64,000 bases of DNA, from contig NC_088302.1 in NCBI RefSeq assembly GCF_032854445.1, forward strand, positions 39,126,191 through 39,190,190, in the 5' to 3' direction. The position numbers and the translations under genes were made by a program. Position 1 is the stretch's first letter, and each line of letters begins with the position of its first letter. Under the pieces are notes generated by a model. It ran no database searches. It saw nothing but the letters and a program-made list of their open reading frames with translations, and was not told the DNA's origin. This document shows, piece by piece, positions 19,946 through 64,000 of this stretch. Origin of the DNA: Liolophura sinensis (taxonomy: Eukaryota; Mollusca; Polyplacophora; Chitonida; Chitonidae).

Positions 19946-20191
19946 ATGAGGCGTAATTCAGTGACCCTGCTGAAGTTTGTGATTGCGGCCGCAGTGTTTA
20001 TAGTAACAGGCCCCATGGCATTGCGATTCCTCATGAACAAGAGTGGGGAAGAGGACTCTGTGGCAGGTGTAGTGAAGGAGATGGGTCTGCCACAAGCTCC
20101 CAGGGATGCTAGGGATGCTGGTGATGCTGTGAAAGTCTTTGACCAGTTAAAGGCACTTGTGAAGGATGAGGGACATCGTCAAGGAGCACAG
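19946..20191 (+). CDS. GALNT10-like: Copy A exon 1: start, transmembrane anchor, stem
   Basis: Encodes residues 1-82 and ends in phase 0 at CACAG/gtaact. It starts MRRNS, then a hydrophobic stretch (about 8-28) fits a signal anchor. The rest is a charged stem with a short [10 protein letters not shown] stutter. Stems of this family vary freely in sequence and length, so the identity of this exon rests on the matching exon 1 of copy B (same MRRNS start and a shared MPQAPR-like motif). Confidence 0.88.
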
Positions 20192-23100
20192 GTAACTGTA
20201 GTTCTGTCTGTTTATTGTTTTTCTGTCTAAGGTGTGTGTATTTTGTCTGTCTGTCTGATGTCTATTGTCTGTCTCTGTCTCAGGCTGGCTGTCTGTATGT
20301 CTGTTGTCTTTCGTTCTTTTGTTAAAAACACAGTAGTTAGTTTTCTCTGTAATGCTTTATAGTGAAACTTTGAAGGGCTTACAGTACATGTGTACCGGTA
20401 CAATTTGATTAGCACATGTGGACACACATCTAGTGATACACACACACGAAAAATAAGTCAACATTAAACATAAACTATGTATGTTTGGGACAATGCAGTG
20501 ATAGTAGTTAGCCACAGTGTTAGTATTACATGTACTTTGCATGTAAACTGATCTGTGCGATCACACAGTGAAACATCAAGACCATAAATCGTCAACAAAT
20601 CCGACCAGTAAGTGATAAACTAATATGTATTTTGAAAACAAATAATTTGATTATAATATGTTGTTCATCTACTAGCAGAAATGAACTTGACAGAAATTAC
20701 AAAACGTGTTACAAACCTGTTCAGATCAGAATAATTCCTGTAATATACCAAAACATGCGGTATCTCTATGGTCAAAGTTGGTCATGGATTTATAAAGGAT
20801 ACGTATAGATGTACATTTTACACAAGACTGAATGTTCGGTCATGGTAGTCATAGCAGTCGTGTCAGTCACATTTCCTAGCTGCAACCCAGTTGTTCTTTG
20901 TCTTGATTTCCAACTTGGCAAGTGGAAAAAAAAATTATGAAACCACTTGGGTTGTTAACAGAACTTCCAAAAGTAATTTATCATCTAGGTTAAGTCTTAT
21001 CCAGACAGCAGCCATCATTAACGTGAGCTACATGTAACAAAGTTCTCAGCATGCTGATAACAAAATTCACCCCTGCACATTCTATACATGAGTTTTTAAT
21101 CAATGTCTGAGTCAACACGAATAGTTCAGCACTACTGTGTATTTAAAGCAACAGGTCCACTGATAATGTGTATAAACATCCACCACTGAGTCTGGCGGGA
21201 GTCTGGGGGCATTAATAGGCATTCAAGTTGTCTTGTGTGGAGTGGATTGGAGATCCAACACACATCAATATGTTATAGACTTACACGTACATAGTGCTGG
21301 GCACTTTGGTCTCCTCCACCTGTAAAAGTGCCTGTCATATGACTGAACAATTCTTAACATGGCATGTTAACAAGCAGCAAGAAAGAAACAAAATAATAAT
21401 AGTTACCTTGCATGTGGAGCAGTTCAATTAATTCATAGGTACCCATTTAGGCCTGTTAAATCATGAACTGCCCTTAAAACTAATTGTTGGTATGTATATA
21501 AAATTAAAACCTGTCTGCATCATTGATGAATTACCTCCCTTGATGAAAATGGCACACAACATGGGTACATCTGTTTATATGTACATCTCCTGTTGGCAAG
21601 GTATTAAAAATGAGAACTGTTAAATTCAAGATCATGAGTACTGTAAAGGCTGTTGTGTTCTACTACATATTTGTACGTCGCATAAACATACATACCATAC
21701 GCATGTTTTTGCAGTGTCAAACATGCAGGTAGGTCACAGAATATTGGTTTTGTCTTTTTTAATTGTGTTAGAGAAGACAGTGTATAAAATATTAAGTTTC
21801 ATTGAAGATATACATGTAGATAATGTGACATGTAATGTCATAATCATAAAAATCACACTCTCGTCTGCTTGTGAACTGATATTAATCCAGATCATTTTAC
21901 CCATTGTAATACCCATTTTATTCCCAGTTTATATTGAGGCTATCTATTTCCCATTATTTTCCATTCAACAATGCTTCAAATTATCCAACATTTAAGTTAG
22001 TTATTTATTTATTTATTTGATCGGTGTTTTACGCTGTACCCATAAATATGTCACATATACGACAGTGGCCATCATTATGGTAGGAAGAAACCGGGCAGAG
22101 CCCCATGGAAACCCATGCCTATCCGCAGGTTGCTGGCAGACCTTCCCATGTACAGGCAGAGAGGAAGCCAGCATGAGCTAGATTTGAACTCCCAACGACT
22201 GCATTGGTGAGAGACTCCTGGGTCATTACGAGGGGCTAGAGTGCTAACCAACTGAGCCACAGAGGCCCCTGCCACCAAATAAGTGCATCAGTTAACCTTT
22301 CATTACTAGGTCCATGATGATGTACTTAATAAGCAAAGGATATATGTTGATTTATGTTGATTCAGTGACATTGAGAAGCAGGGTAGGGATGGTTGGGGCT
22401 GGGCTCACATGTTTTACTGGATTGTATAGTGTGTAATGGGCTAGATAGTGTGCTGTGTTTGAGTACCTTGGTAGCAGCCTTCAACCTGGAGTGGCTCTTG
22501 GAATGCACAATATCCCATATCCCACATCCCACAATATCCCACATCCCACATCCCACAATATCCCATATCCCACAATATCCCATATCCCACAATATCCCAC
22601 ATCTCACAAGACGTTGGCACAGTGCATACTTGCCTACAGCTAAATTTCATTTCTCAGATCCACATATATGTCTTGTAATCTATATGTTACAAGCTACACT
22701 GTAGATTGAAGATGTTTTATCCCATTTATTGATTATAGTATTAGTCACCTAAGGGCTGAATAACTTATTAAATGGCAAGGCGTGGACTGTTAAAATGCTA
22801 CAGGTAGACCAACAGGAATTCACTTCGTACATGGACATACTGCATGCTACATATAAAACTATGAGTCTATAAATTTTAAGTTTTAGGCTTTGTCCACAAT
22901 TGTCTGTCCAAACTACACGAACATCAGTACAGTCTTTACAGATCAGCATATTGTGTGTGGAGCTTATTTTTTAAGCGTTTTGTCATGCTCATAACATCTG
23001 TGTTTGTTTAGATGGTTTGAACTTTTTATTGATTGTCAGTGTTCATGCCAGACCTCATGACAGTTTGCCATGATTATGAATAAGTGAGTGTACATGTACG

Positions 23101-26100
23101 GTACATGTAGATTTCTTCAGTGAACTGATTTATTTGTGAAACACTATATTTGGGACACAGGAAAATTAGTTCTACTTTCATTTTACATGTACAATCTGCA
23201 TCAAATATTATTTCTACGTAACTGGACATTAGGCCATAACAAATTAAATTTTTGTTTAAAGTGCATAATGAATGTCTGAGGAGGATATGGAAGTAAAATT
23301 GCCTTACTACTCGTACGTGTAGTGCACTGACTTTTCCTATTTGCGAATAAAGTCTTAGATTTCAGGTATTAGGTCATGTGAGTCTGTAGTACCGCAAAAA
23401 TCTGTACCGTCCCATAAGTCTGTAGTGCTCATATATCTGTAGTGTCCCATAAGTTTGTAGTGCCTGTATAACTGGACTGCCCCATAAGTTTGTAATGCCC
23501 ATATATCTGTAGTGTCCCATAAGTCTGTAGTGCCCATATATCTTTAGGGTCCCATAAGTCTGTAGTTCCCATATATCTGTACTGTCCCATAAGTCTGTGA
23601 TGCCAATATATCCCTACTGCCCCATAAGTCTAGTGCCCATATATCTGTAGTGTCCCATATGTCTGTAGTGCCCATATATCTATACTGTCTTATTAGTCTG
23701 TAGTGCCCATGTATCTGTACTGACCCATAAATCTAGTGCCCATGTATCTGTGCTGTCCCATAAGTCTGTAGTGCCCGTATATCTATACTGTCTCATTAGC
23801 CTGTAGTGCCCCATAGATCTGTGGAGTCCCATAAGCTTGTAGATTACCATAAGTTGTATAAGTCCCATAAGTCAGTCGGTGACCCATAAATCCATAAAGT
23901 CCCATATCTCAAGAATATTTCACTTATACATCGACTACCAGCATTATGGTGTTAGGAATCCGGACAAAGCCAATAACCATATATATGGTACAAATAAGGG
24001 ACATAAATGTTGACATGTTAACCTCATATGGTGTGTCAACTGGTTTTTGATATTGTTGTCTAGTCATTGTGAGGCTTCCTCTCTGGCTGTACATGGGAAC
24101 GTCTGCCAGCAACCTGCGGATAGTCGTTTGTTTCTCCCGGGCCCAGTTTCCTCCCACCATAATGCTGGCAGCCATCGTATAAGTGAAATATTCTTGAGTA
24201 CAGTGTAAAACACCAATCAGAAAAAATAATTTACTCATTGTTAAAAGAACACAGCCTGTAATGCTGTTAACTTGTGCTCAACAACAACCTTTTATGACGT
24301 CTGTACAGTTCGCTTGTTATAGAGCCCAACTTGTGGAGAGACTTTACGGCACATTTTGTGAGACATTTTCCTTACGAATAAGTATTCTGATCATCTCTTC
24401 TTGTTTTCCCATGTTGACTTTTGTCTGGTGATGAATTGTGTGGAGTTATAATTGTGTTTTGATCAGGAGAGCTTAGATATGGCCCAAGACTGATTTTTTT
24501 TTTTCAGCAATCCAGCGATTAACAGGTACATAAAACTTGCAAATTTTGGGGAAACCATTTGTCAATGTGTTGCTTGTAAAACTGATGTTTCTACAATCCC
24601 AGTGAGATCCTCTCCCCAGATTTTATGTTTGTTCCTGTGTATCTGGAGTGGTGTCTTAGACATGCTCTTGTATTTTCTCATATGTTTTAATTTGACTTAA
24701 GTATTTATTTGATTAATATTATTAACATATGTCGTATTCAAGCCAGGGAGAAACCCGCAACCATCCGCACGTTGCTGGCAGTGGCAGACCTTCCCACGTA
24801 CGGCTGGAGAGGAAGCCAGCATGAGGATTGTTGGCAGGCTTTAGGGTCATTGTGCCGCGCCTTGGCCCTTCCTCAGATGTTTCGTATGGTTTTATTATTC
24901 AATAATATGTCTGGAATTTTATCTGAGTGTGTTTGTGCTTCTTGCTTTGATATTGCTCCTTCAGTGTGGAGCATTGAATGTCCATTGAATGCTAGATAAA
25001 TAGATGTAATTCAGTGGTTAGACACTCTCAGATTTTCCCTGTTTGCTGTTCAATTAGAAACAGCTGACATCATACATCATGATGTGTATTGATTTTATCC
25101 TAACTTGAACTGCGTTTTTTTCTTGTAAAGCTTATCCATATCACACATCTGTTACCAAGCATTTCTAAACCCATGCTATTGATGCAAGGCTGTTGAGTTC
25201 ATTACGCAAAGGTGTACATAAAAATTCATCACTCGGGAACATGTATATTAATACCTGTGTGTTATTGTATAAATGTGGAAAGGCAATATGGACATGTAGC
25301 CGTGGTTTATTTTTGCTGCTCTTTGTGGTATTGACTAGACCTGCAAAACAATTTGCCTTTACAGTTTGAGGCGCTTATGAATTAGTTAAAAAAAAATTAA
25401 ATTTGCTGATAGCCTGAAACCTCAAGATATGCATGTATTTCGGACACAGAGGATACTTATAATGTGTATGTATGGACATGTGTACATGTCTACTCTTAAA
25501 AACACAGGCAAATCAAATCTGTTGCATGAACTACAGTATATTTATTTATTTATTTGATTGGTGTTTTACGCCATACTCAAGAATATTTCACTTGTACGAC
25601 AGCGACCAGCAATATGGTGGGTGGAAACCGGGCAGAACCCGGGGGAAACCCACGACCATCCGCAGGTTGCTGCCAGACCAACTACAGTATAGCCAGGTTG
25701 TATAAGTAGCAGTAGATACATTTACATGTATATAGCCAACAACAAATCAAGTGGCAGATTACTTCTTGTGTTAGCTTCTGTTGTTTATAATAAGTTGATG
25801 TTGAAGATTAAATTTTATTGTAGTCCACACATATAGCAAGGATTACCTTGAAAAGATTGGATTAGAAAAACTGGAAATTATTGCGACAGTCCTGCATATG
25901 GAGAATCATGTCCTTGTCAGGCTTGTCTAGAACAGACCACATCAGTACTGTACATGTAGTTTCTAATTGTAAATGTTAAATTTGTAAGTTTTGTTTTAAG
26001 TTGTAAATATGCAACCACATACTAAATGTAGAATTCCTCAAGAATCACCCAAGGTTTAAGGACAGACAATACCAGAGATTTTCACCCCAAAAAAGGTCCA

Positions 26101-29100
26101 TATTTGTGAATGAAATCAAATTTTCTGTATTCTCCTAGAATTGCTCAGATTTTTGTCCTGTGCTTCTATTATTTATAGTGTTAGAATGGTTTTAATGTCA
26201 TATTTTAGGCACATGTATGTCATTACCACTTTTGAATTATAACATTGGCACAGATGAGGTTGATATTTTGTAAAAGGTCATTAATTATTCATGGTACTCA
26301 AAAATAATAATCCAGTTTCCTCCCATAATAATGCTGGCCATCATCATATAAGTGAAATATTCTTGAGTATGGCGTAACACAGCTTTCAGATAAATATATC
26401 AAATAAAAAATTATAGCAAAATGTCTTGGATTTTGCTGAATGTGTTTTTGTCCAAAAATCTCCAGTGTAGCCCCTTTAATATTGCAGTGATTTGTTAAAC
26501 ATAATGTTTTTTTGTACCGGCTATTCAGACATTATATTGGTGTATATGTCAGAATCTAATGTGACTGGTACAGCTGGCTGATCAGACTGATTTAATACCG
26601 AAGTTAAACATTTTACCTGTTTGCGTTCGGGACGCTTTATTGACTTTAGATATTGATTCAGACTCACAGCTTTGTATGACACATGTCTTGTATGTCAATG
26701 GATCTATATGTATATGTATGCTTTTTCAGTAAAGAATTGCTGATAAGATGCACGCAGATCAGCAGGTGGTGATTTAACTTTATACTTGATTGTTAATTAT
26801 AAACATATACAGTATACCTGTACATATGCATGTACACAGAACCAGCAGAACCTGGACTGAGCCCTATTTGCACATTGTAACAATATGCGTAGTGTACATG
26901 TACATGTTCTCCATTAGCATTTATTATTATATTTTGTAAGTGTGTCAGAGAATAGGGATTAAAATAATTATTTGGTTCGGAAGGAATTAAGCTAAATTAG
27001 GAAATATTAGAGGCTGAATAAGAAAAAAATGTGCAGCTAGATTTACAAACTTGACTTGACAAGTACAATAAATCTTCAACCTTTTCAACCTCCATTAGCA
27101 TTTTTTTTCAGTGGAATTTACGCATACAATTTTTTATGAAAATGGCTCCAAAAATGATTTGTTTAAGTCAATATTAAGGAAGCAAGCTTAATAAAACTGT
27201 ACAAATTATTTCTCTACATCCCATAGTTCTCCCAGAATGTTTCAAAATATTGGTCGCAGTGGTGGTTGAAAAGGTTGAAGAATTAGCGAACTTTTTTGGG
27301 TGCACTGACTAAAAGGTGAGTGCACATACTTGTACATGTATGTGCACCCATTCAACTTTAATTTCAAAACCTGAATCATGTATGTCTTTTTACATTACTT
27401 TTAACACACAGTACAGTATGTAGATGCCAGTAATACATACATGATGCTCCAGCAGTTGATAGTGCATGTAGACATGTACACAAAAGACTCAATACTGAGT
27501 AAGGGCATAAATCCTGCTCCTGTGTTATCAAGTTTATACCTACACAAATCTACATGTATATATGGCATTTTATTGCACAAGATGAAGTAAATACCTTTGG
27601 TTTCCTTTTTTATCAGGCCGAGGACCCTATGGAGAAGATAGATTGGCATAACTATAAACAAATAGCAGAGGAAGAACAGCGCAAAGGTAAGCAACTCTGT
27701 CATACCCAAACTATAGTTGCTAGTAAAGGCCTTGTCACAAACTACAGAATGAGTTTTGAAAATCAGCATATGTCATGATGAGCATGAATATAGTATAGAT
27801 GCACAGTGGTTGGAATATATCACATGAATATTCAATATATACCACTTACAGTGTGTAAAAGAATGTAGTTGAGTCCCAGAGCTTCTGCTAGATGTTCACT
27901 ATAGTGGGTAGCTCTTGGCCAATGGTGTGTCATGTTCAAATCCAGGACCCACTCACTTTTAAGTCAGGAAGTTTAGTCAGGTATCTGACAAAGCGTTACA
28001 GGATTTGACGTCAGGAATAGCCAGTTGGGGTGACAGATGTGGAGTTGTTTCTGACTTTAGTCGCTGCAATATGGCTAAAATATACATGTAACCATAATCA
28101 GTCATTCTTCACTTATGGATTGTGGACAGGGCTGTGGTTGGGTGGGTGATCAAAGTTCGTACTTGTGGAAACGGTCATGTGGAAACAAACTCATTCTTGA
28201 ACCATTTGCTTATTGGGGCCTTGGTAGCAAAAGCACTCAGCACTTCCTTTCTATGAGTGTAACAGATTACACATGTGAGAGTTCATTAGTTAGTCAAAAT
28301 TTGTTGCTAATACTCTGGTTACTCCAGTTTCCTTGATGTGTAAAACTCAGGCGTCCATTTTTTCAGTGAAAATTGTTGAATATTTATTTATTTATTTATT
28401 TGATTGGTGTTTACGCAGTACTCAAGAATATTTCCCTTATACAACGGCGGCCAGCATTATGGTGGGTGGAAACCGGGCACAACCTGGGGGAGACCCACGA
28501 CAATCCGCAGGTTGATTGACAGACCTTCCCACTTACGGCCGGAGAGGAAGCCAGCATGAGCTGGACTTGAACAAATTGTTGAATATGGCATTATACAAGT
28601 TACAATAATCAGAATACTAATCCTGTGGTTTGTAGGCCCTGGAGAGCAAGGCCAGGCAGTGATTCTCTCCCCTGAAGAAGAAGCGAAAAAGGACGCTCTC
28701 TACAGAGTCAACGGTTTCAATGCCTTTGCTAGCGATAAGATCTCATTGGACAGATCATTGAAGGATATACGTCACGAAGAGTAAGTTGACTTTCGCACAT
28801 TAAAAACACACATAAATATAAATAAATTCCTTATATAAATTATAAAGTGTATTTTATGAGAAGAACAATAAGCTGTGTACCAATTTCCATCAGGACTTTA
28901 AGACCAAATTTTTGTGATTAAAAGCTTTCTCCCAGAGTCCTGCCCTATATTATAAAGGATGCTTGATGTTTGTGTTTCGAACTTTCAAGGGATTTATCTT
29001 TCAAAGAGAGGATAAACATTGGATGACTAGATCTACACGCTCTTCCCTTTGTGATTTGCTTTACTTTTTACTTTATATTCCTACATATAGGTGTAAATCA

Positions 29101-32100
29101 AAAAAGTATGTAAGAAAGCTTCCAACAGCAAGTATAGTTGTACCATTCCACAACGAACACTGGACCACACTCTTACGAACAGTTCACAGTGTAATCAACA
29201 GATCTCCCGCACATCTTCTTCATGAAGTAATCCTGGCCGATGACTTCAGTAATAAAGGTTAGTGGATAGTCAGTGTTGTACTCAGTGACTTCATCAGTAA
29301 AGGTTTATGCTGGGTAGTATACATCATAGAATGTGGCTTCATTATACATCGTAGTCTGTGACTTCAGTATACATCATAGTCCATGACTTCAGTATACATC
29401 ATAGCCTGTGACTTCAGTATACATCATAGTATGTGACTTCAGTATACATCATAGTCTGTGACTTCAGTATACATCATAATCTGTGATTTCAGTATACGCC
29501 ATAGCCTGTGACTTCAGTACACATCATAGTCTGTGACTTCAGTATACGTCATAATCTGTGATTTCAGTATACATCATAGCCTGTGACTTCAGTATACGTC
29601 ATAGCCTGTGACTTCAGTATCCATCATAGTCCATGACTTCAGTATACGTCATAGTCTGTGATTTCAGTATACATCATAGCCTGTGACTTCAGTATACGTC
29701 ATAGTCTGTGATTTCAGTATACGTCATAGCCTGTGACTTCAGTATACGTCATAGTCTGTGACTTCAGTATACGTCATAGCCTGTGACTTCAGTATACGTC
29801 ATAATCTGTGACTTCAGTATACGTCATAGTCTGTGACTTCAGTATACGTCATAGTCTGTGACTTCAGTATACGTCATAGCCTGTGACTTCAGTATACGTC
29901 ATAATCTGTGACTTCAGTATACGTCATAGTCTGTGATTTCAGTATACATCATAGCCTGTGACTTCAGTATACATCATAGTCCAAGACTTCAGTATACATC
30001 ATAGTCTGTGACTTCAGTATACATCATAGTCCAAGACTTCAGTATACATCATAGTCTGTGACTTCAGTATACATCATAGCATGTGACTTCAGTATACATC
30101 ATAGTCTGTGACTTCAGTATACATCATAGTCTGTGACTTCAGTATACATCATAGTCCATGACTTCAGTATACATCATAGTCTGTGACTTCAGTTTACATC
30201 ATAGTCTGTGACTTCAGTATACATCATAGCATGTGACTTCAGTATACATCATAGTATGTGGCTTCAGCAGTAAAGGTTTGTGGCGGATGATATGCGCTTA
30301 TCTCGTCTAATTTTTTTATATTGTGGACAAGATTATCAAAAACAGTTCAAGACAGAGCTTTCAGTATCATTATGTTCATTTCATAAAATGGGGCATATGT
30401 GTTTTATAAACTCTCAACATAAAGTCAATCGTCTCTTCCTGACAACTCGAGGTACCTTTATCAAGTATTATTTTTGTTGTCAGAATTTCTGGGGTCTCAG
30501 CTGGAGGAGTATGTGAAGAAGAAGTTTGACAAAGTAAAGGTAGTGAGGGCCAAGCGGAGAGAGGGGTTGATCCGCACCAGGCTGCTGGGCGCCCGTGCTG
30601 CCACTGGGGATGTGGTCATCTTCTTAGACTCCCACGTGGAGGCAAATATCAACTGGCTACCTCCGCTTCTAGGTAAGAAATCTGTGTGATTTCATACAGG
30701 TGGTGAACATAATCACAAACTTAGGCTTTCTATTATGAGATCCACTCCACCTACTCTCATTGTTTGTGGAGCCTTGGTGACAATAAGCGGTTGACTTATT
30801 GTTGATGTTCACACATTGTAACATTCGTTTAAGATCATTTGTCTTCCATCAATATTGTGTGCCTTGTATACGTGTGTTTGTCAGCGACTTACCAGAGGTC
30901 ATTGGTTTATTCCGGCCTCACCAGTTTCTCCTACTCATGAAAGCTGACTGCCATAGTGTGAGGGAAGAATTATTGAGTATGGCATCAATCATCAGTCTGA
31001 TAAATAAATAAAAGCGACTAACATCAAGAATTGTGTGAAATAAACATGATTACTTGCAAGAGAATCAGGCATAAAATAACTGTTACTGCCATGATTAGGA
31101 CAAATTTTTCTAAAACTACAATTCACTAAAAATTTTAGCGGTTGTGAAATATTTGTCTGGATGTTGTTTTCTTGGTCTTTTTGTGTGTTAGTCATGAAAA
31201 CATTTCAGTATTAGAGGTGGCAAATTTTGTTTTGTTCAACGCTATAAAAATCTAAACATGTGTGATGCTAATTTTTTGATCTGTAGAACCCATTGCCTTA
31301 AACCGGAAGACAGTTGTGTGCCCTTTCATTGATGTCATTGACTTTGAAACGTTCGCATACCGTGCGCAGGATGAGGGGGCTCGCGGAGCATTTGACTGGG
31401 AGTTCTTCTATAAACGGCTTCCTCTTTTACCAGAAGATCTGAAACACCCGTCTGATCCTTTTAAGTAAGATTTGGGAAAACTTGCTGGAATTACTGAAAA
31501 TTTGACAGCATGAAGTTTTAATCCGACAGGCCATCAAGCTTTAGCGATAGATTTATGAACCCAAGCACAGATTTTATTAGTTTTGATCTTGGGAATTAAA
31601 GAAGTCATCTTTCTGACTTTAAAATGAACACAATATCAGTCAAAACATGACTGAATACACCTCAGGTTTTCAAGTGTTAGAAATTATTTTGGATTATCTC
31701 CCCTTGGGTCCCACAGAGTACTTCAAATATGTCCTCATATTTATGAACATGGACCCTTTCTCCTCACAATAAATGTGTTACCTACATATATTACCTTTTT
31801 TATCAACAGTTTCTCATATCTAAGGGCAGCGTTAAACTTAATTTATTCATTATAGCAGTAATTTAAGTTTTGAAGGGTTTGCCAACATCTGGGATTCACA
31901 GAAAATCTCAGTGCAGGCAGAGAAATGATGTTGCTAAAAAGCAATATTGTTTACACAAAATTTGCTTAGTAATTTGTCATTCAAAACAGCAAGAAGAAAC
32001 TGTTACTTTGAAAAAGTGTTACCATTTGTTTCAAACTTTAGAGGGCCCTGTTTTTTTAGCAACTTGGTGCCAATGTGACCACACCTGCTCTGTTGTGGCG

Positions 32101-35100
32101 AGTGTAGTAGTGCGTAACATCAAATGCAAATATACCTGATGATATTATCACTGATAAAACATGACATTATGTTGAAAGATAATAAAAATGATTTTAAAAA
32201 TATAAAAACGATTTAAAACAGAAAAAAGCCAGAAATTGAAGTTTTACCAAATATATTTCCTTTTTCCATGTTGTATAACCAGGAGTCCTGTGATGGCTGG
32301 AGGGTTGTTTGCCATGGACAGGAAATTCTTCTGGGAGCTTGGAGGATATGACCCAGGTCTGGACATCTGGGGAGGAGAGCAGTATGAACTATCATTTAAG
32401 GTAAAAACAAATAAAGAGAAGAAGGAATTTGTACCTGTACAGATAGTATGTTTAGTGCAGATGGTGTCCATGATCCAGCTTAGTGTTGATATGCATATAA
32501 TTTATAAAACCTTAATATTAAGATAATTTAGTAAATTACACACTGCTTAAGATTCATAGTTGTACATGGGTTTAATATTAATAATGAAGTCGAGGCATCA
32601 CCGCATGAATGTAAAAGGTTTTGATCCACATGCCAGGATCATGACTAACTTTATTTCAAAAATATAAATGGTATATAGTGGAATGTTTACTATGTATGAA
32701 GAACTCAACAGAAGTTGGCTGAGATGTTATGTCTGGGGGTTTGTTAAGTACATCTAAGTACTCTGTCCAGGTCTTCCATACCTGTGATATTACCAAGTTC
32801 ACAAGACTGAAAAATGTCAGTGAACAGTAGGCCTGAATCAGAGAAATAAATCCTGACAGAAATCAGAACTTATGCGTACTTTGAAATGTTACATCAACTG
32901 ATAACTGTTTGTATACTCATACCCACGTTGCCTGTTTGTGTCTGCACAGATATGGCAGTGTCACGGGGAAATGGTGGACGCCCCCTGCTCCAGAGTGGGG
33001 CACATCTACAGGAAGTTTGCCCCCTTCCCTAATCCGGGTGTTGGGGACTTTGTTGGCAGGGTGAGTATGCTTAGAACAGATTTTTTTTGAACATCTGCAT
33101 GTAGATGGAATTCTGTATGGCATACATTGTGCCTGAACTAATATTTCAGTTTACATGTAAAATGAAGTTTTGGAAATATCTGCGTCAAGCAAACTATCAT
33201 GTTTGGTTCACTTCTTTCTGTTAAACTTGACCTGATCAGTATATTTATTGTATGGTATGTTATGTTTATATTGTTTGTTCAAGACTTATCATCTTTGTGT
33301 GTTTGTGCCTTAGAATTACAAGCGTGTGGCTGAGGTATGGATGGATGAGTATAAGGATTACCTGTACCAGCGACGTCCACACTACAGACAGATTGACGCC
33401 GGTGACCTCTCTGCTCAGTTGGCCATCCGCTCAAAGCACAAGTGTAAACCCTTCAAGTGGTTCATGAAGGAAGTGGCCTTTGACCTGCCCAATTATTACC
33501 CACCTGTGGAGCCCAAACCATTTGCCTATGGAGAGGTAAGCTATGATTACAGTACTCACTTGGAAGTTACCCTAATTCCTCAAACTTTTTTGCATGTGAA
33601 AGAGCAACTTTCAATGCATTTTGTACACATTTTAATTTGATTTTATCAGAAAGTGTAATTTTATCAGTCAATACAGAAAATGCCTTCAAAATATGCTTGA
33701 ATAAACACCTTGCAAACATGCAAAGATTGAAGAATTACAGGACTGTTTATAAGGAAAATCTCATCATCATTATCATCATCATCACAAGAAGTGCAGACTT
33801 TTTCGTGGAAAACAAGGGCAAATTTGCAGTAGCTTAATAGCTTGATAGCATCTTACTCTGGCCACTCTTTCAGTGAATGGCCCATGTTAAAATATAGGAT
33901 GTCAGAAATTTGATAGCATAACTTACTGAGGAGCCTGCCTCAACTAAATGTAAGGTTCAAGTCTATATATTTAATATATATGTGTCTTGGAAGTAAACCA
34001 AACCTGCGGATGGTCGTGGGTTTGCCCACGGACTCTGCCCGGTTTCCTCCCTCCATAATGTAGGCCTCCGTTGTATAAGTGAAATATTCTTGAGTACGGC
34101 TTAACGCCAATCAAATAAATAAATAAAATCAAAGTAAACCACTAAACAAGTCTTTCGATCTGTTGAAATAAAATATGTATTGAAACAGGATGGCATGTTG
34201 TTCTTTTATACTTTGAAATCTGCCCACTTTATTAAAATTTCAGTTAATATATTTTAGATCCATCTGAAAGACAGCCCACTTTGTTAAAATTTCAGTTAAT
34301 ATATTTTAGATCCGTCTGAAAGACAGCCCACTTTGTTAAAATTTCAGTTAATATATTTTAGATCCGTCTGAAAGACAGCCCACTTTGTTAACATTTCAGT
34401 TAATATGTTTTAGATTCGTCTGAAAGACACTGAAATGTGTATAGACTCGCGGTTTAAGGGAGCCAATGAGAAGTTTGGTTTGGAGAAGTGTATCAAGGAT
34501 GGAGGCAGTGGAGGAGAACAGGTGAAGGTTTTTATTACAGAAGATTGAAAACTGTCAACGTCAAGTCAGAAAATAACCTCTACAGAACTTGGTATTCCTT
34601 TGAGCGCTGCCATGAACCTTCCTTTTTGCCTCTCAGTGAAATAAACGTCTCTCAGGAAATAGTATGCTGAAATACCAACTATTAACACCATTAAAAGTGT
34701 AATGCTCAGGACCCATTTAGCAATTTTAGAGTTTTAATGGAACACAACTCTGTTCAAAGCCATGTAAAAACACAGCTTTCTCTATTGTCATTAGTGTGAA
34801 GGTATAGTGCTTGTGATTAACCACTTTGCTTTACGAGTACAATTATATGTAAACAATATGGCTCCAGAAAAAAAAAGAGAGCATGATTGACCCATTTTCT
34901 TTAGGTAGCCAATTTTTTAAAAAACATCAGTCAAATCAAACAAACCTTTAACATACATTGTTGTTCAATGAAAATGGAAAGCCTTGTGATGATGTTAAGT
35001 GGTAACCTTAACATACATGGTTGTTCAATGAAAATGGAAAGCCTTGTGACGATGTTAAGTGGTAACCTTAACATACATGGTTGTTCAATGAAAGTGTTAA

Positions 35101-36626
35101 GCCGTGTGATGATATTAAGTGGTAACCTTAACATACATGGTTGTTCAATGAAAGTGTAAAGCCATGTGATGATGTTAAGTGGTAGCCTTAACACACATGG
35201 TTGTTAAATGAAAATCTAAAGCCTTGTGATGATGTTAAGTGGTAACCTTAACATACATGGTTGTTCAATGAAAATGGAAAGCCTTGTGATGATGTTAAGT
35301 GGTGACCTTAACATACGTGGTTGTTCAATGACAGTGTAAAGCCTTGTGATGATGTTAAGTGGTCACCTTAACATACATGGTTGTCAATGAAAATCTAAAG
35401 CCGTGTGATGATGTTAAGTGGTATACATTTGTTTGTATTGTGCTGCAGGAGTTTGAAATGACGTGGCACAAGGATTTGCGACCAAAGAAAAGGAATGTAT
35501 GTTTTGATGCATCCCAATCTATTCCGAAAGCACCTGTCATTCTCTTCAGCTGTCACGGCATGAAAGGAAACCAGTGGTGGAAATACAATATGGTATGGAT
35601 TTTTCAGATAAAAGCCTTGTGTGATTGATAATATAAAAGGTTACATGGAATATACAGTAGGTCTTTCTCACATATTGATTTCCAGTAGTGATTTTGTATA
35701 AAGAGCCTCGCTTTTGATCTATTTATTTATTTATTTATTTGATTGGTGTTTTACGCCGTACTCGAGAATATTTCACTTATACGATGGCGGCCAGCATTAT
35801 GGTGGCAGGAAACCGGGCAGAGCCCGGGGGAAACCCACGACCATCTGCAGGTTGCTGACTTACCTTCCCACTTACGGCCGGAGAGGAAGCCAGCATGGAC
35901 TCACAGCAACCGCATTGGTGAGAGGCTTCTGGGTCATTACGCTGCGCTAGCGCGCTAACCGACTGAGCCACGGAGGCCTCTGCTTTTGATCTAGATTGGC
36001 CTAGACACTTTTGTCACACAGCGAGCTAGTCCATCTAGATGGATGGACTTGGAGTACCATTTTAAAATTCTCATAACCATTGTAACACTGAGTCCATTCT
36101 CAAAAGACTTGCCGCAGATTTCAAACTCTATGTCTCCTGCCCACTCTTGGCAGTCTGCACTCACCTCCTCTGCTCATTTTTGTGTAGCTTTACCATGGAA
36201 TCTTGCATACTATCCTCTTAATAAATATTTATAAAATATTGTCTGTATTAAATTTACATGTATATTTTTCCGTCTTGCTTTGCTGCTGGCCTAAAATATA
36301 CTTCAGCAATATAATCAAAAGATAACGTGTTCATGCAGTCATGTTTATAACATGTATATGTACAGATATGTACGCAAACAATATTTGGTTGCTTACAGGA
36401 ATTGTGTTTTTCTCATGGAGTATATGTTATGACCTTAACTTGTTTTCTGTCCTTGCTGTAGGACACAAACCAGCTGAAGCATGTGATCAGTAACCAATGT
36501 CTGGATGCGGATGCTGAGCGGAAAGATGTCTACATGAACCCCTGTGATACAGACAGTAACACACAGAAATGGACGTTCGGCAATGTCAATGAGACAGCAG
36601 TCAGACGAGAATGGATCAGAAACTAG
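19946..36626 (+). CDS. GALNT10-like: Polypeptide N-acetylgalactosaminyltransferase 10-like, copy A (12 exons, 620 aa)
   Basis: Join 19946-20191, 27617-27686, 28636-28780, 29091-29257, 30484-30672, 31287-31464, 32283-32400, 32950-33060, 33314-33535, 34414-34521, 35449-35592, 36462-36626. All junctions are GT/AG, phases agree, total 1863 nt including TAG. Predicted type II Golgi enzyme that transfers GalNAc from UDP-GalNAc to Ser/Thr. Seen: transmembrane segment about residues 8-28, stem to about 150, PFHNE near 172-176, EGLIRTR at 236-242, metal-binding DSH at 258-260, SPVMAGG at 333-339, WGGE at 361-364, SRVGH with the third metal-ligand His at 389, ricin-like lectin domain 483-620 with CID, CFD and CLD repeats. 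Length matches vertebrate GALNT10 (about 600 aa), and exon-by-exon resemblance to that subfamily is strong (from memory, no search run). The start is the first ATG after an in-frame TGA at 19910; the same start context occurs in copy B. Whether introns contain alternative exons cannot be seen. Confidence 0.95.
22001..22270 (-). mobile_element. tRNA-derived SINE, family 1, full length
   Basis: In intron 1 of copy A. On the minus strand it starts GGGGCCTCTGTGGCTCAGTT (A-box like), has B box GAGTTCAAATC, and ends in (AAAT)n. No clear TSD. Confidence 0.9.
22507..22608. repeat. Minisatellite AATATCCCAYATCCCAC
   Basis: About six units of 17 bp with one expanded by extra catcccac; in intron 1 of copy A. 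ORFs across it on both strands (GYCGMWDM-type repeats) are artefacts. Confidence 0.85.
23382..23902. repeat. Dimeric minisatellite in copy A intron 1
   Basis: About 14 copies of a ~35-bp unit composed of two related halves (ctgtagtgtcccataagt and ctgtagtgcccatatat). It decays toward the 3' end and abuts a SINE fragment. Confidence 0.85.
23903..23971 (-). mobile_element. SINE family 1 fragment
   Basis: Contains ctcaagaatatttcacttat and agcattatggtg only; truncated on both sides, directly after the minisatellite. Confidence 0.6.
24073..24230 (+). mobile_element. SINE family 1, 5'-truncated
   Basis: Core and tail present. Possible short TSD TCATTGT at 24064-24070 and 24235-24241. Confidence 0.82.
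24702..24862 (-). mobile_element. SINE family 1 with internal deletion
   Basis: Tail (tatttatttgatta) and head-side part (gttgctggcagtggcagacc, ttcccacgtacggctggaga) flank a deletion of the central core. Confidence 0.7.
25541..25679 (-). mobile_element. SINE family 1, 5'-truncated, with 12-bp TSD
   Basis: TSD AACTACAGTATA at 25529-25540 and 25680-25691, perfect. In intron 1 of copy A. Confidence 0.9.
26050..26475. mobile_element. Putative foldback element with nested SINE piece
   Basis: Ends resemble inverted repeats (tttaaggacagacaatacca at the left; the complement of tctccagtgtagcccctttaa at the right), akin to the element at 58603-58951. A family-1 SINE piece (26312-26407) lies inside. 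Confidence 0.4.
26312..26407 (+). mobile_element. SINE family 1, short 3' piece
   Basis: gtttcctcccataataatgc, ataagtgaaatattcttgag and a degenerate tail. Confidence 0.7.
27074..27280. mobile_element. MITE-like element with perfect 17-bp inverted ends
   Basis: Left end CTTCAACCTTTTCAACC (27074-27090), right end GGTTGAAAAGGTTGAAG (27264-27280), exact complements, 207 bp apart overall, no ORF inside. Possible AAT target duplication. The same end sequence occurs at 38312. Confidence 0.75.
27617..27686 (+). CDS. GALNT10-like: Copy A exon 2: stem
   Basis: A 70-nt exon, phase 0 in and phase 1 out, with acceptor tttttatcag and donor AAAG/gtaagc. It encodes [16 protein letters not shown]-type stem sequence that aligns without gaps to exon 2 of copy B. 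Confidence 0.92.
28384..28572 (-). mobile_element. SINE family 1, 5'-truncated, with 14-bp TSD
   Basis: Perfect TSD AAATTGTTGAATAT at 28370-28383 and 28573-28586. Inserted in intron 2 of copy A, 63 bp upstream of exon 3. Confidence 0.92.
28636..28780 (+). CDS. GALNT10-like: Copy A exon 3: end of stem and start of catalytic domain
   Basis: 145 nt, phase 1 in and 2 out. Contains [17 protein letters not shown] and DIRH, the family's conserved entry to the catalytic region (NGFN, SDKISL.RSL, DIRH in GALNT10). Two codons shorter than copy B's exon 3. A TSD-bracketed SINE sits 63 bp upstream of it in intron 2. Confidence 0.95.
29091..29257 (+). CDS. GALNT10-like: Copy A exon 4: first strand of GT-A fold
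   Basis: 167 nt, phase 2 in and 1 out. Encodes [24 protein letters not shown] and the ADDFS motif; the last corresponds to the V/A-DD-S nucleotide-sugar site of the family. The donor AAAG/gttagt is followed within 60 bp by a 25-bp minisatellite. The last 113 nt are nearly identical to copy B (see findings). Confidence 0.96.
29317..30266. repeat. 25-bp minisatellite right after copy A exon 4
   Basis: About 38 units of ttcagtatacatcatagtctgtgac type filling most of intron 4. Units in the middle mainly read tacgtcat, those at the edges tacatcat. The flanks (cttcatcagtaaaggtt at 29290, cttcagcagtaaaggtt at 30262) resemble the end of exon 4 with its donor. Confidence 0.93.
30484..30672 (+). CDS. 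GALNT10-like: Copy A exon 5: DXH metal site
   Basis: 189 nt, phase 1 in and 1 out. Encodes [20 protein letters not shown] and the DSHVEAN catalytic metal motif (D258, H260), then NWLPPLL. These are the GT1 signature features of the family. Acceptor tttgttgtcag. Confidence 0.97.
30905..31012 (+). mobile_element. Degenerate SINE family 1 piece
   Basis: Only ttgagtatggc, the position of the core and a taaataaataaa tail are recognisable; intron 5 of copy A. Confidence 0.4.
31287..31464 (+). CDS. GALNT10-like: Copy A exon 6: catalytic core
   Basis: 178 nt, phase 1 in and 2 out. Encodes [14 protein letters not shown] and [12 protein letters not shown]; the RGAFDW element is typical of GALNT7/10-type enzymes. 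Donor AA/gtaaga. Confidence 0.96.
32283..32400 (+). CDS. GALNT10-like: Copy A exon 7: Gal/GalNAc-transferase motif
   Basis: 118 nt, phase 2 in and 0 out. Encodes [20 protein letters not shown] and then [17 protein letters not shown], the most diagnostic motif of the ppGalNAc-T family. Confidence 0.98.
32950..33060 (+). CDS. GALNT10-like: Copy A exon 8: IWQCHG / SRVGH segment
   Basis: 111 nt, phase 0 in and out. Encodes [17 protein letters not shown] (His389 is the third metal ligand by family analogy) and a flexible loop, four residues longer than in copy B. Confidence 0.96.
33314..33535 (+). CDS. GALNT10-like: Copy A exon 9: end of catalytic domain
   Basis: 222 nt, phase 0 in and out. Encodes [32 protein letters not shown] and [16 protein letters not shown] before the linker to the lectin domain. 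Copy B's exon 9 has the same length. Confidence 0.97.
33565..33660 (+). repeat. Interspersed repeat R3, fragment
   Basis: Aligns with 63520-63612 (cctcaaactttttt..catgtgaaagagcaactttc, then tgcacattttaa-like). Confidence 0.55.
34001..34131 (+). mobile_element. SINE family 1, 5'-truncated, with 10-bp TSD
   Basis: TSD AAGTAAACCA at 33991-34000 and 34132-34141, perfect; intron 9 of copy A. Confidence 0.9.
34223..34430 (+). repeat. 52-bp x 4 array repeating the exon-10 splice acceptor
   Basis: Units start at 34223, 34275, 34327 and 34379. Each contains atttcagttaatatatttt ag and the first 16 nt of exon 10 (atccgtctgaaagaca). AG acceptors at 34257, 34309, 34361 and 34413 are equivalent. After the first three, translation in the incoming phase 0 reaches TAA ten codons in; only the fourth continues into the lectin alpha repeat. 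Confidence 0.93.
34414..34521 (+). CDS. GALNT10-like: Copy A exon 10: lectin alpha repeat
   Basis: 108 nt, phase 0 in and out. Encodes the alpha repeat with MCID (Asp493 retained) and GLEKC. Its acceptor is the last of four nearly identical acceptors in a 52-bp tandem array (34223-34430). The other three lead to an in-frame TAA, so 34414 is the only one that keeps the frame. Confidence 0.93.
34730..34850 (+). repeat. Interspersed repeat R4, copy 1
   Basis: Similar to 38158-38250 (gtgtaaaaacac, tatagtgcttgtgat, ctttgctttasg, acaattayatg at matching order). Confidence 0.5.
34949..35423. repeat. 60-bp minisatellite before copy A exon 11
   Basis: About eight units, period exactly 60 bp (one unit 59 bp), each with ttgttcaatgaaaatg and gccttgtgatgatgttaag. 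It ends about 25 bp before the exon-11 acceptor. Because 60 is a multiple of 3, both strands give repeated 20-aa ORFs, which are artefacts. Confidence 0.92.
35449..35592 (+). CDS. GALNT10-like: Copy A exon 11: lectin beta repeat
   Basis: 144 nt, phase 0 in and out. Encodes [12 protein letters not shown], a CFD motif, [13 protein letters not shown] (the QxW element). The acceptor gtgctgcag comes 25 bp after the end of a 60-bp tandem array. Confidence 0.96.
35722..35981 (-). mobile_element. tRNA-derived SINE, family 1, full length, with TSD
   Basis: Perfect 12-bp TSD GCTTTTGATCTA at 35710-35721 and 35982-35993; intron 11 of copy A. On the minus strand: GGCCTCCGTGGCTCAGTCGG head (A box), core and (AAAT)n tail. 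An 11-bp or so deletion removes part of the B-box region. Best reference copy in the window. Confidence 0.93.
36462..36626 (+). CDS. GALNT10-like: Copy A exon 12: lectin gamma repeat and stop
   Basis: 165 nt including TAG at 36624-36626. Encodes [20 protein letters not shown] and TQKWTFG, a full gamma repeat with CLD and QxW. The first canonical AATAAA after the stop that I find is at 37615, inside a foldback element. Confidence 0.96.
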   Translation, partial: DTNQLKHVISNQCLDADAERKDVYMNPCDTDSNTQKWTFGNVNETAVRREWIRN

Positions 36627-43769: not shown

Positions 43770-43988
43770 ATGAGACGAAACTCAGTGATCGTACTTAAGT
43801 ATATGGTAGTAGCGACGTTGTTTCTAATGATCTTACGAATCCTCGTGGCAATGATTGGGAGTGAGGGCCCTCGCGCTGACTTAGGAAATGAGCTGGGTAT
43901 GCCACAGGCTCCCAGGGAATCTGATGGGGCCTTAAAAGTCCAGAAAAAGTTACCCGTGAAGGACAAACTGCCTTCTAATGAGGACCAG
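43770..43988 (+). CDS. GALNT10-like: Copy B exon 1: start, anchor, stem
   Basis: 73 codons, phase 0 out at GACCAG/gtatgt. The CATCATGAG start context and MRRNS match copy A. The hydrophobic segment covers residues 8-29. Its last 83 nt and donor are duplicated 305 bp downstream. Confidence 0.9.
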
Positions 43989-46900
43989 GTATGTCTTTGT
44001 CTGTATACATGTGTACGAGCCTGCGTGTCTGTCAGGATACTGTATGTCTGTCTCAGTATATGTATACATGCATGTCTGATTACTGTATGTCCATGTCTGT
44101 ATCTATGTGAACATGCCTGCATGTCCGTCAGAATACTGTCTGTCTCTCTCTATATGTAGCCTACATGCATGTCTGATAACTGTATTTTCCATGTCTGTAT
44201 CTATGTGAACAGGCTCCCAGGGAATCTGATGGGGCCTTAAAAGTCCAGAAAAAGTTACCCGTGAAGGACAAACTGCCTTCTAATGAGGACCAGGTATGTC
44301 TTTGTCTGTATACATGTGTACGAGCCTGCGTGTCTGTCAGGATACTGTATGTCTGTCTCAGTATATGTATACATGCATGTCTGAGTACTGTATGTCCATG
44401 TCTGTATACATGCCAGCATGTCTGTCAGAATACTGTATGTCTCTCTTAGTAGATAACCTACATGCATGTCTGAGTACTGTATGGCCATGTCTGTATCTAT
44501 GTGTACATCCCTGCATGTCTGTCAGGATACTGTATGTCTCTGTGTTTAGCCTACATGCATGTCTGAGTACTGTCGCCCGTGTCTATATATATGTGTGTGT
44601 ATGCCAACATGTCTGTTTATTTCTTTACTTATTTGGTCTTTTACGCCGACTATTTATACGACTTATACGACGGCGGCCAGCATTATGGTTAGAGGAATCC
44701 CACGACCACGTCTGTCCTTGGCAGACCTTCCCACTTACAGCCAGACCTGTGCATGCATTGTATGTAGGCCTATATTTGTGCATTCCGTCATGCTTATCTT
44801 ATGTATTGAAAGTTTCTATACATGTAGGCTATACATACCTGCATGCCAGTTTGAGTACTTCATGTCTGCGAGTTTTCCTCAGTATGTACCTCTCTGTATA
44901 CGAGACCATGCCTGAATGCCTGACTGGGTAGACCAACATACCTCTGTCATTTCTGTGTTTGTGTATGTGCATCACGACAGAGAAAATGCTAACGTAAAGT
45001 TCCTGAAAGATGAAAGCCCATTAAAACTATCCACAAAAATAGTGGGATTTATTTTTTTTTTTTTTTCGAATTTTTTTTTTTTTTCATCTCAGTAAAATGC
45101 GTTTGGAACTTTTGAATCTGTAGTGACTTTATCTGACCATATGTGGGCAAATAACGTAGCATCACATTTTTGCCTCTTAACACACACAGGCCGCTAGATT
45201 CTATCGCTCTAAATGCATAAACTTATATATCTATGAATGCATTTGCCCAATGGACCGTGAAACGAACTGTTTCAAGGAAAACTGTGTAAGTGACGTCGCC
45301 GATACCCCCTGGGTCACTAAAGACCACTGTAGAACATGATATTTTATAAACATTTTACTCGGTTGGAAAAATTCTAAAAACTAAATCGAACTATATTCCT
45401 GGACAATGTTGAATGGTCTTTCATCTGATATATATTTCATGTTCATTAATGTTTCCTTTGCACCTCAAGTTTGTTTCTGCATACTCAACTCTGTCTGTAT
45501 ATGTGTATATGTCTGCCTGACTACCTAACTGCGCTGTTTGGCTCTCAGTCACCGTACATGCCAGCATGCTTGTCTGAGCATATAAATCTCTGGTTGCGTG
45601 CATATGCCTACATATCTGTCTGTGTACTGTATATCTGTCTGTCTCAAAATATACCTCTGTGGATTCGTGTACATGCCTGCATGTCTGTCTGAGTACTGTA
45701 TGTCTTTATGTATACTTGTACATGCTTGCATGTTTGTCTCAGAATATACCCGTGTCTGTATGTGTACATGCCTGCATGTCGGTCTCAGAATATACCCTGT
45801 CTGTATGTGTACATGCCTGCATGTCTGTCTGAGTACTGTATGTCTAACATTCTGTATATTTGTACATGCTTGCATGTGTGTCACAGCATATACCCGTGTC
45901 TGTATGTGTACATGCTTGCATGGCTGTCTCAGAATATATTCCTGTCTGCATGTAGCATATGCCCGTGTCTGTATGTTTGTACATGCTTGCATGTCTGTCT
46001 CAGCATATACCTCTAGCTGTCTGTATTTGTGCATGCTTGCATGTCTGTCGGAGTGCTGTATGTCACTTATATGTGTGAGCATTTGCCCCATATTTGTGCT
46101 TGTCTATCAGTATGTTACACTATATACTTGTGTAGGCTATAGCCATACGCATCGTCGATTACATAACCTCCCAAGATAATTGACAAGTTCGTTTACATTA
46201 ACTGATCGACTTTGAATTGTCGACAGATGGCGTAACTAGTCGCCAGTTTGCTTTAGTTGGCTTCAAACAGGGGCTTCATTTCAGAACAGCTGACGTCAGA
46301 TTTAACGTAAATGGTAGATCGCGGCCTGTGATAGCTAGACAACGTGTGTTACTGTTTCAATGTGACAGTTCGACCCACACTGTAATCAATAAGCCAGAGC
46401 GCCCCTCAGGGCGCCCCTCAGAGGGCCCCATGGAAGGGGGTTGACTCCTCTTCTGTTTCATTCCCTCCGCAAGGGGTAATATTAAATTCAATGGTAAATT
46501 TAACATATGGTATCTGATAAATTGCATTTAACGCTGCATTGCTTTTTGTTATTTGCTACCATTTAAGCATTTACAGTTAGCATAAAACCTTCACCTAAGT
46601 AAACTGACAAGAGGCCGTTTTTCACCGGTTGCCAGTTATCATGCTGTCGTCACTGCTCTGAAAACTTGAGATTCCACAATTTATTCTGCTTAATACATTA
46701 GGATAAGGTCGGATCATTTTGCAATGACTTGTTCTCCAAGTCAAAATATTCTCGCTTTGGCCTTATGACAGCTGTTAAGTTTAGACTGACTAAGCCGGCG
46801 TGTCCGGGCTAAGCAACCGGTGTTCGTCAAGTACGTACAGACAACCAATTAAGAGATGTGCATCATTCACTGTGGCAGGTCGAGTAGCAGAGATGGACAT

Positions 46901-47882
46901 TGATGTAACCATCTGAAAACTCAAACCCCAAGCAAGATGTCGTTTTTTTTTTCTAAAGCACGTGTAACAATGTTATTATTCGGAATGTCTAAAATATGAG
47001 GAGGAATGCCATGATGCAGGAGCGTAGTCTACGTCAAACGACATTCACTGTCCCAGTCACCTGAATTGACTTACCTGAAGAATGAAGAAAATACACTGTA
47101 AATTCGATTGGCATTTCTATATCGTCTTTTAGGTTGAGGACCCTCTGGAGAAGATCGACTGGCATGACTATAAGCAGATAGCGATAGACAAACACCGCAA
47201 AGGTACGCAACTCGCTATCTAACGCATCACCTTAACACCCATATACTGTAATTTTTCTAGTTTTTTAAACACCTGGCCTGCTCTTTGTACCCAGAACAAA
47301 TGCAACTGTAGCCGGAATATTTAGTTTCAATTTTGTTCAAATGGGTAGTCCACCCAGTGAAAAACATTCATATCTTTGCATGTTCAAAATAACACTTTGA
47401 CAACGAGTGTCACTTCAAACTCATGTTATCATATCGTTTGGAAAATTTCAGTTTAAGAAATATTTTATGTTTGGGCAACACAGAGTCTGGAAAAATATCT
47501 AGATAGTAGAATTTGGCCACCTGAATTTGCATTCAGTTGAAGTGACTATATAACTACCGGAAGTGTAAGTAACCTACATCCCATGTAAAACAATCAGTTC
47601 CTCATCTCTCTAGGCGTGGGCCCAAAATATCACATTGCAATGATCGTGAACATATTTAGCATGTGTGTAGCCCTTAACACTTCAGTGAAGTGTTCAGTCA
47701 TACGTATACCATAGGTACAAATTTGTGTCCATGGTGTCATTGGCTGATAATGTTCAGAACAACACGACTTTGCATATGGAAATTATTTCTAAACTAAAAT
47801 CATCCATGTCTGTTTCACCTCAAACCATCTTTATTTGTTTTTATTTACTTATTACCATTCTTAATATTTGTGCCGTGCGTAC

Positions 47883-47934
<52 letters not shown>

Positions 47935-60644: not shown

Positions 60645-61338
60645 TCAAAACGTGATGGGTACTCCAGTTTCTTTTGACCAGCTTAAATGGCAAAATACCA
60701 CCAGTGCCGCCAGACACAGTCCAAAAGCAGAAGAATTCAAGTTACTGCCGATAGACGAGCTATGATCATTAAAACGGACGCAGCGATTGAATTCTATCAC
60801 CTCCTGTTGCATGATGAATGTTAAGTACTGAAGTGTTCCGTCCCAGTCCTCTATGAAGGTCACCGCATCCGGAATGGGACTTTTCTCTGTCAGAAACCAG
60901 TACACACCCGTCAGGGCCACCGAGAATGTGTCTTTGGTTTCAGACGGCAACAAAAACCCTTCGAAATGTTCCCCGTATTTAATTTCCAACCTCGGCTCTG
61001 GGCATGGCGGATAAATACCCGAAAATCTCCGAACAGCTTATTTCCGTAAGTTCCGGTGTATTCCTCTAATGGACGCTGCGGCGCATGCGCCTTACTAGGG
61101 AAGTCTACAGTGGGCTGAACCTCGCGCCAAGGTTCCGGGAACGTGCATGACGTCGTGTGATTCAGCCACGGTGTCTCCCCTGACGTCACGTCCGCCAGAT
61201 AGTAGGCTATCAGCGCCAGAACCGGGTCTCTTGCTTGACGATTTGCAGCGACGAAAATCCCTGTTTTCTGATCAGGTAACAACCACAGAACAGAAGACGA
61301 TGCTAATAGAGCGCCTGCATGGTTCACAAGGCGATGAC
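60645..61338 (-). CDS. Hydrolase last exon, frameshifted
   Basis: Acceptor tccacttccag. Begins HRLVNHAGALLASSSVLWLL (HAG motif) and runs to GDFRVFIRHAQSRG, where the reading frame breaks. Family-like sequence continues two frames over (LEIKYGEHFEGFLLPSETKD, then TGVYWFLTEKSPIPD). The 3' end encodes a hydrophobic stretch that may be a membrane or GPI-type tail. Confidence 0.82.
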
Positions 61339-63224: not shown

Positions 63225-64000
63225 CTGAAACAGAAGATTGATTAATTTATTGATGGAGTGACGCCATACTCAAGATTTACTTGAGATAGCGTATAAAGCG
63301 GTTCGTTTCATTGGGGAATGAAACTGAAGTGCCGGGGGTAAATCAACAACCTTTGGTAAGTTACTGACAAATTTTCACATGTGTACATACATAGTTGCGT
63401 GCCATATTTATGGAAAGCAACGGACGTAAAACTGCACATGTAAACCGCCCACAAGCGCATACCTTACATACGTTTACAATCCAGATCTACCAAGTTCTAA
63501 TGTGGCCTCAAATAGGTTACCCTAAGTCCTCAACTTTTTCGCATATGAAAGAGTAACTTTCAGTGCAATTTATGCACATTTTAAATTTGTTTTTGGAGAC
63601 AAAACTACATTGGTTAGATTGGCAAAAAAGGTGGAACAATTTTAATATACCGGATATTTTGGGCAAAAATCGATTATCGCAAATGCAATCAATGTTTTGC
63701 TTACATTAGCCCAGGTAATTATCTTTCACAATGTAATAATTTTTTCTGCGCACAGCTCAAACTGCATGGTAAAGTTCCTAACATTTATAATACGGATTGT
63801 ACTATAATTTTTTAAACTTTACAGAATGATTTAAACACTATTCATAGTAGAGGCACGATTCTGATATTCACTGAAAGGCAATACTTTGAGCAATTCTTAA
63901 TAATAATACAGAAAATTTTATCTGATGAGCGAATTTGGATATTTGCTTCTCCAGTCTTCGGTATAACATCTTTAAGTCAGATGACTTGTCAGGTGGTGAT
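63225..64000. other. Intron of the hydrolase gene, to window end
   Basis: Holds a family-3-like SINE piece at about 63236-63440 and an R3 / MITE-like stretch at about 63518-63980 related to 58603-58951 (gggcaaaaatcgattatcgc at 63660). No further exon is visible, so the 5' exons lie beyond 64000. Confidence 0.55.

Follow-up and report, generated by a model that had tools for sequence, protein, structure and literature searches.

Minisatellite-like tandem repeats that run over intron/exon boundaries have been described as mirages in the amphioxus genes Adh3, TnC, BflGb6, BflGb9 and PGBD5 (PMC3087553, PMC3902484). Their units range from 10-72 bp (Adh3) to 150-160 bp (globins); a BflGb6 unit joins the end of an intron to the beginning of an exon, and that of BflGb9 covers an exon's 3′ boundary (PMC3087553). 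The edges of such clusters are described as escaping homogenisation, and haplotypes of BflGb6 carry either six or three units (PMC3087553). Aberrant mRNAs arising from the upstream splice signals of a mirage are held to be possible in principle; Adh3 data and globin RT-PCR, as presented in the same account, suggest regular splicing to be undisturbed by the repeats (PMC3087553). The passages on lancelet TnC in a second account do not report aberrant mRNA, and those on PGBD5 give accurate splicing as the authors' own inference, with one annotation predicting an exon from the repeats that lacks EST support (PMC3902484). All mirage cases that we found in the literature come from lancelets.

Several other systems place duplicated sequence, or competing sites, at the end of an intron or exon. 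Tandem-duplication intron gain, as in the Rogers model, potato RdRp and ATP2A1, forms a related class (PMC4974935). At IFI6 (6-16, G1P3), a minisatellite located at a splice site supplies several donors (PMC4526556, PMC2572611); these extra donors are said to give rise to different protein isoforms (PMC4526556), whereas the array described below supplies extra acceptors that lead to stops. With NAGNAG and other tandem acceptors the array shares the competition of several AGs at one intron end. It was nevertheless rejected as a member of that class, as its acceptors lie 52 nt apart, with a TTTCAG 14 nt (not 3 nt) before each, every site has a branch region of its own and all but one lead to a stop. 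Among papers on splice variants of GALNT10, or on duplicated acceptors that splice unproductively, none stood out as describing this case.

A 52-bp array at the exon 10 acceptor of a GALNT10-like gene

The 64-kb window analysed here (the whole 64,000-nt stretch of Liolophura sinensis DNA) contains on its forward strand a predicted GALNT10-like polypeptide GalNAc-transferase gene, for an enzyme of mucin-type glycosylation (gene A; 19946-36626), identified by Pfam and PDB homology, whose 12 exons join into an open frame of 620 amino acids. The predicted protein matches PF00535, PF02709 and PF00652 (Glycos_transf_2, Glyco_transf_7C and Ricin_B_lectin, respectively), and among solved structures it comes closest to polypeptide N-acetylgalactosaminyltransferase 10 (PDB 2d7i, E = 1.7e-200), which we take to be the human enzyme. 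A tandem paralogue (gene B; 43770-55663), predicted as an open model of 12 exons as well, lies on the same strand and is 73.4% identical to gene A over 621 columns. Exon 9 of gene A (33314-33535) ends at the donor GAG/GTAAGC. As exons 1-9 encode residues 1-482 and the ricin-type lectin match covers residues 480-603, exon 10 (34414-34521; 108 nt, phase 0/0) opens nearly all of this match and is the exon with which most of the lectin domain begins; its skipping would keep the frame of the gene model. Homology to GALNT10 runs on across the exon 9/10 joint, and exon 10 of gene B, which starts at 54307 behind a single acceptor, agrees with that of gene A in phase and first codon (ATT). Together, the alignment through the joint and the equivalent start in gene B place the productive site at 34414.

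This acceptor lies within a 52-bp array at 34222-34429, for which TRF reported 4.0 head-to-tail copies with 96% matches, 0% indels and a score of 381. Twenty windows randomised with the dinucleotide transition frequencies of the original reached a TRF score of 74 at most, indicating that the array is not a chance feature. Each unit comprises 36 nt from the end of intron 9 followed by 16 nt from the start of exon 10, and each contains an extra TTTCAG 14 nt upstream of its TTTTAG, a feature that the initial annotation of the locus did not list. Decoy exon starts are thereby provided by copy 1 (34222-34273; exon start at 34258), copy 2 (34274-34325; 34310) and copy 3 (34326-34377; 34362), while copy 4 (34378-34429) comprises the productive acceptor, with its AG at 34412-34413, and the actual first 16 nt of exon 10. 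An initial annotation of the locus had already described four tandem 52-bp units, each carrying an acceptor and 16 nt of exon 10, which the TRF result confirmed; it had placed the same array at 34223-34430, one base off the present register. Its acceptor positions (34258, 34310, 34362 and 34414) were exact, with the donor following 33535, and its exon number was right, the exon in question being number 10 of 12 in the joined gene model.

Copies 2 and 3 are identical over all 52 sites, while copy 1 differs from both at two and copy 4 at three of the 52. Identical inner copies with diverging outer ones, albeit judged on few sites, recall the lancelet clusters, as does the fourfold repetition of a unit (36 nt of intron plus 16 nt of exon) that spans the exon/intron boundary; unlike the lancelet mirages cited, the array resides in a GALNT10-like gene. 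Judged by this anatomy, it would represent a further mirage-type minisatellite. At exon position 3, copy 4 shares a T with gene B where copies 1-3 have a C, and this single site suggests copy 4 to be the one closest to the ancestral unit. The 52-bp unit found no match better than 30/52 outside the array within the 64-kb window, its pattern had zero matches in a collection of prokaryote contigs, and no relatives of exons 9 and 10 were confirmed among viral contigs.

The identity of copies 2 and 3 is also what one would see if the assembler had expanded one or two true units. However, copies 1 and 4 each have private differences, and the window is dotted all over with arrays of differing period, as would be the case in a repeat-rich genome, so we regard an assembly artefact as very unlikely.

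Reading frames and strength of the competing acceptors

When 28 AGs between 33906 and 34427 were joined in silico to the donor after 33535 (AGs from the donor to 33900 were left out), only 34414 gave an open joint. Joining at 34258, 34310 or 34362 yields nine codons followed by TAA, and the TTTCAG sites of all four units run into a stop once seven codons have been read. Proteins predicted from mRNAs spliced at copies 1, 2 and 3 end at residue 491 of 620, with the stop located 234, 182 and 130 nt upstream of the exon 10/11 junction, respectively. By the usual rule, nonsense-mediated decay acts on mRNAs with a stop more than 50-55 nt before an exon junction. Since stops at 130-234 nt fall under this rule, decay of the decoy mRNAs is to be expected.

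AG contexts were scored with a small in-window matrix derived from 17 acceptors, namely those of exons 4-12 of genes A and B minus the tested one, with the four acceptors of exons 2-3 omitted. Each decoy reached 3.30 bits compared to 3.97 bits for the real site, and 13 of the 17 other acceptors, by their left-one-out scores, outscored the latter. Site 34414 is thus weak as an acceptor, with decoys close to it in score, and this weakness means that actual leakage to the decoys may be substantial.

The copies also differ in their branch regions. Copy 4 contains TTAAC, a match to yUnAy whose putative branch A (34391) lies 22 nt from the AG. The equivalent sequence is TTAAA in copies 2 and 3, where no yUnAy occurs within 15-45 nt upstream, and in copy 1 the motif is present within CTTTATT, 26 nt ahead of the AG. 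In the same 15-45 nt interval, yUnAy is found at 12 of the 17 other acceptors as compared to 1740 of 3571 AGs in the window (49%). As nearly every second AG thus has the motif, decoy 1 included, the branch-motif argument is weak and at most suggestive, and we downgraded the motif as a sole discriminator between the copies. In copy 4, the AG of TTTCAG is located 8 nt from the putative branch A of TTAAC; AGs at so short a range (below 12-15 nt) from a branch site may be passed over in splicing (PMC1431707). Masking of the decoys by RNA structure was considered and rejected, as the region 34200-34521 folds with a z-score of -0.35 and 26 of 100 shuffled sequences fold as well.

These data refine several statements of the initial annotation. 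It expected TAA after ten codons at the three upstream sites; the TAA is there at all three, with nine codons before it and the stop as the tenth. The foreseen loss of the lectin domain or decay holds, given that an end at residue 491 of 620 would remove nearly all of this domain and that the stops lie far enough from the junction for decay. The view that the upstream acceptors are as good as the real one is approximately correct where the AG context is concerned, yet fails in copies 2 and 3 when the branch region is considered. Accordingly, the sites are not fully equivalent, with TTAAC at 22 nt in copy 4, no such motif in copies 2 and 3, and one in copy 1.

The annotation further proposed that the array might act as a brake on expression. 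Here, the decoys would divert a set share of the pre-mRNA to a decay-prone isoform, with copy number tuning that share. A weak real site, decoys within 0.7 bits of it and, for every decoy, a stop 130-234 nt short of the exon 10/11 junction are features on which such a brake could operate. Yet the paralogue has no multi-copy acceptor at gene B exon 10, the RNA fold of the region is ordinary, the overlap of an acceptor with an array is expected by chance given the window's repeat content (see below), and, according to the accounts cited, Adh3, TnC and the globin genes of lancelets splice normally despite their mirages (PMC3087553, PMC3902484). The single acceptor of the paralogue, the ordinary fold and the reported lancelet splicing speak against the proposed function, and we consider a brake to be quite improbable. 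A regulatory brake is unproven and less likely than a tolerated mirage.

Duplicated splice signals across the window

Tandem arrays make up 6.6% of the window (merged TRF rows; 36 rows in total, some overlapping, with many periods). With 18 of the 22 acceptors tested, uniform placement gives a probability of 0.71 for one or more of them to fall inside an array, an estimate that ignores the tendency of arrays to avoid exons. With this chance of overlap under uniform placement, selection is not needed to account for the position of the array.

We compared all 44 exon boundaries of genes A and B with their surroundings within 2 kb, requiring ungapped agreement at 80% or more of 40 nt, a procedure by which echoes with indels, such as the one seen past the exon 4 donors (see below), would be missed. 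Copies were recovered for two of the 44: the exon 10 acceptor of gene A had three (best 37/40) and the exon 1 donor of gene B had one (40/40). The other 42 boundaries reached 25/40 at most, and for the exon 10 acceptor of gene B there was no ungapped copy within 2 kb (best 22/40). At the second locus, the end of gene B exon 1 together with its donor and the start of the intron (43904-44119) is repeated at 44209-44424 (216 nt, 97%, spacing 305), the whole feature extending over 43904-44424 on the forward strand. This test indicates that tandem duplication hit an acceptor in gene A and a donor in its neighbour, gene B. The copied exon 1 segment at 44213-44293 (81 nt, identical) is flanked by an acceptor-like CAG (4.26 bits) and the donor copy GTATGT and, if used, would add 27 residues in frame.

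Duplications of this kind raise the possibility that the gene A array is an intermediate of intron gain, in which an upstream acceptor together with a new donor would create a new exon or intron. The in-frame 81-nt segment of gene B, placed between an acceptor-like CAG and a donor copy, is in line with this idea. So is the case of potato RdRp, where an intron 3′ end plus an exon 5′ part was likewise duplicated and a recruited donor makes the new intron, as set out in PMC4974935; the amphioxus globin model points the same way (PMC3087553). In contrast to potato RdRp, however, the array here has no donor-like GT: the best of 13 GTs in 34222-34445 scores -1.18 bits, compared to 5.7-12.7 bits for donors, the latter range stemming from a model of 20 of the 22 donors scored on themselves. 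The 52-bp unit contains no AGGT either. Formation of a new intron from the array was therefore rejected, its best GT at -1.18 bits being set against at least 5.7 bits for the donors, and so was recursive splicing at a ratchet point, since the unit lacks AGGT. We rate an intron-gain intermediate as highly improbable.

Further repeats were seen in the two genes. By eye, a degenerate echo of the exon end plus donor (GTGACTTCA...AAGGT) is discernible ~45 nt past the exon 4 donor, at 29257-29310 in gene A and 49706-49770 in gene B. The gene B echo reads AAG/GTAAGT and sits behind in-frame stops; the gene A echo lies just upstream of an array of 38 copies of 25 bp (29316-30267) whose unit contains GTGACTTC. 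In intron 10 of gene A, an eight-copy 60-bp array (34943-35423) ends 26 nt before the start of exon 11. An interspersed repeat occurs at 34001-34127, 35721-35884, 53352-53518 and elsewhere, in many copies and on both strands; it is presumably similar to a tRNA-derived SINE found in lophotrochozoans, molluscs among them, and its pattern had zero matches in prokaryote contigs, viral contigs and the literature searched. Outside the two genes, frames on the reverse strand at 60648-63241 resemble exons of a beta-lactamase-related serine hydrolase, as recognised by eye from their translations.

A probably tolerated minisatellite and its implications

We consider it likely that the array is a mirage-type minisatellite that arose by tandem duplication over the intron 9/exon 10 boundary and is tolerated, length-unstable and probably non-regulatory, with splicing mostly at the last copy. 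According to this model, a 52-bp segment spanning the boundary in the GALNT10-like gene would have been duplicated in tandem, and its copies may then have multiplied by slippage or unequal crossing-over. The last copy would serve most transcripts, with help from a better branch motif (TTAAC, at 22 nt); the TTTCAG in copy 4, 8 nt from the putative branch, is probably too close for use. Exon definition probably favours the last copy as well. Where an upstream copy is occasionally used, the resulting mRNA would be removed by nonsense-mediated decay. The array would thus probably be a by-product of duplication that the gene tolerates and whose length is unstable, rather than a regulator. Counting against this model, the spliceosome is able to exploit similar duplications, as seen in the new intron of potato RdRp (PMC4974935) and predicted by the PGBD5 annotation that lacks EST support (PMC3902484). 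Given its close likeness to lancelet mirages in sequence anatomy, it appears as a known oddity and an instructive example, not as a new mechanism.

A bolder proposal holds that the array, as a length-variable minisatellite, acts as a heritable rheostat, in which the number of decoys sets the share of GALNT10-like pre-mRNA that decays so that alleles differ in enzyme dose, and that its presence in a non-lancelet host makes mirages a wider animal phenomenon than the literature found here suggests. We view this as unlikely; if true, mirage copy-number alleles would differ in the enzyme dose they provide.

The array lends itself as a natural experiment on how 3′ splice sites are chosen: four near-identical acceptors stand in series, and a short list of differences marks the one that must be used. 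Together, the copies of the gene A acceptor and of the gene B donor indicate that tandem duplication readily copies splice signals, and such copied signals are the proposed raw material for the gain of introns and exons.
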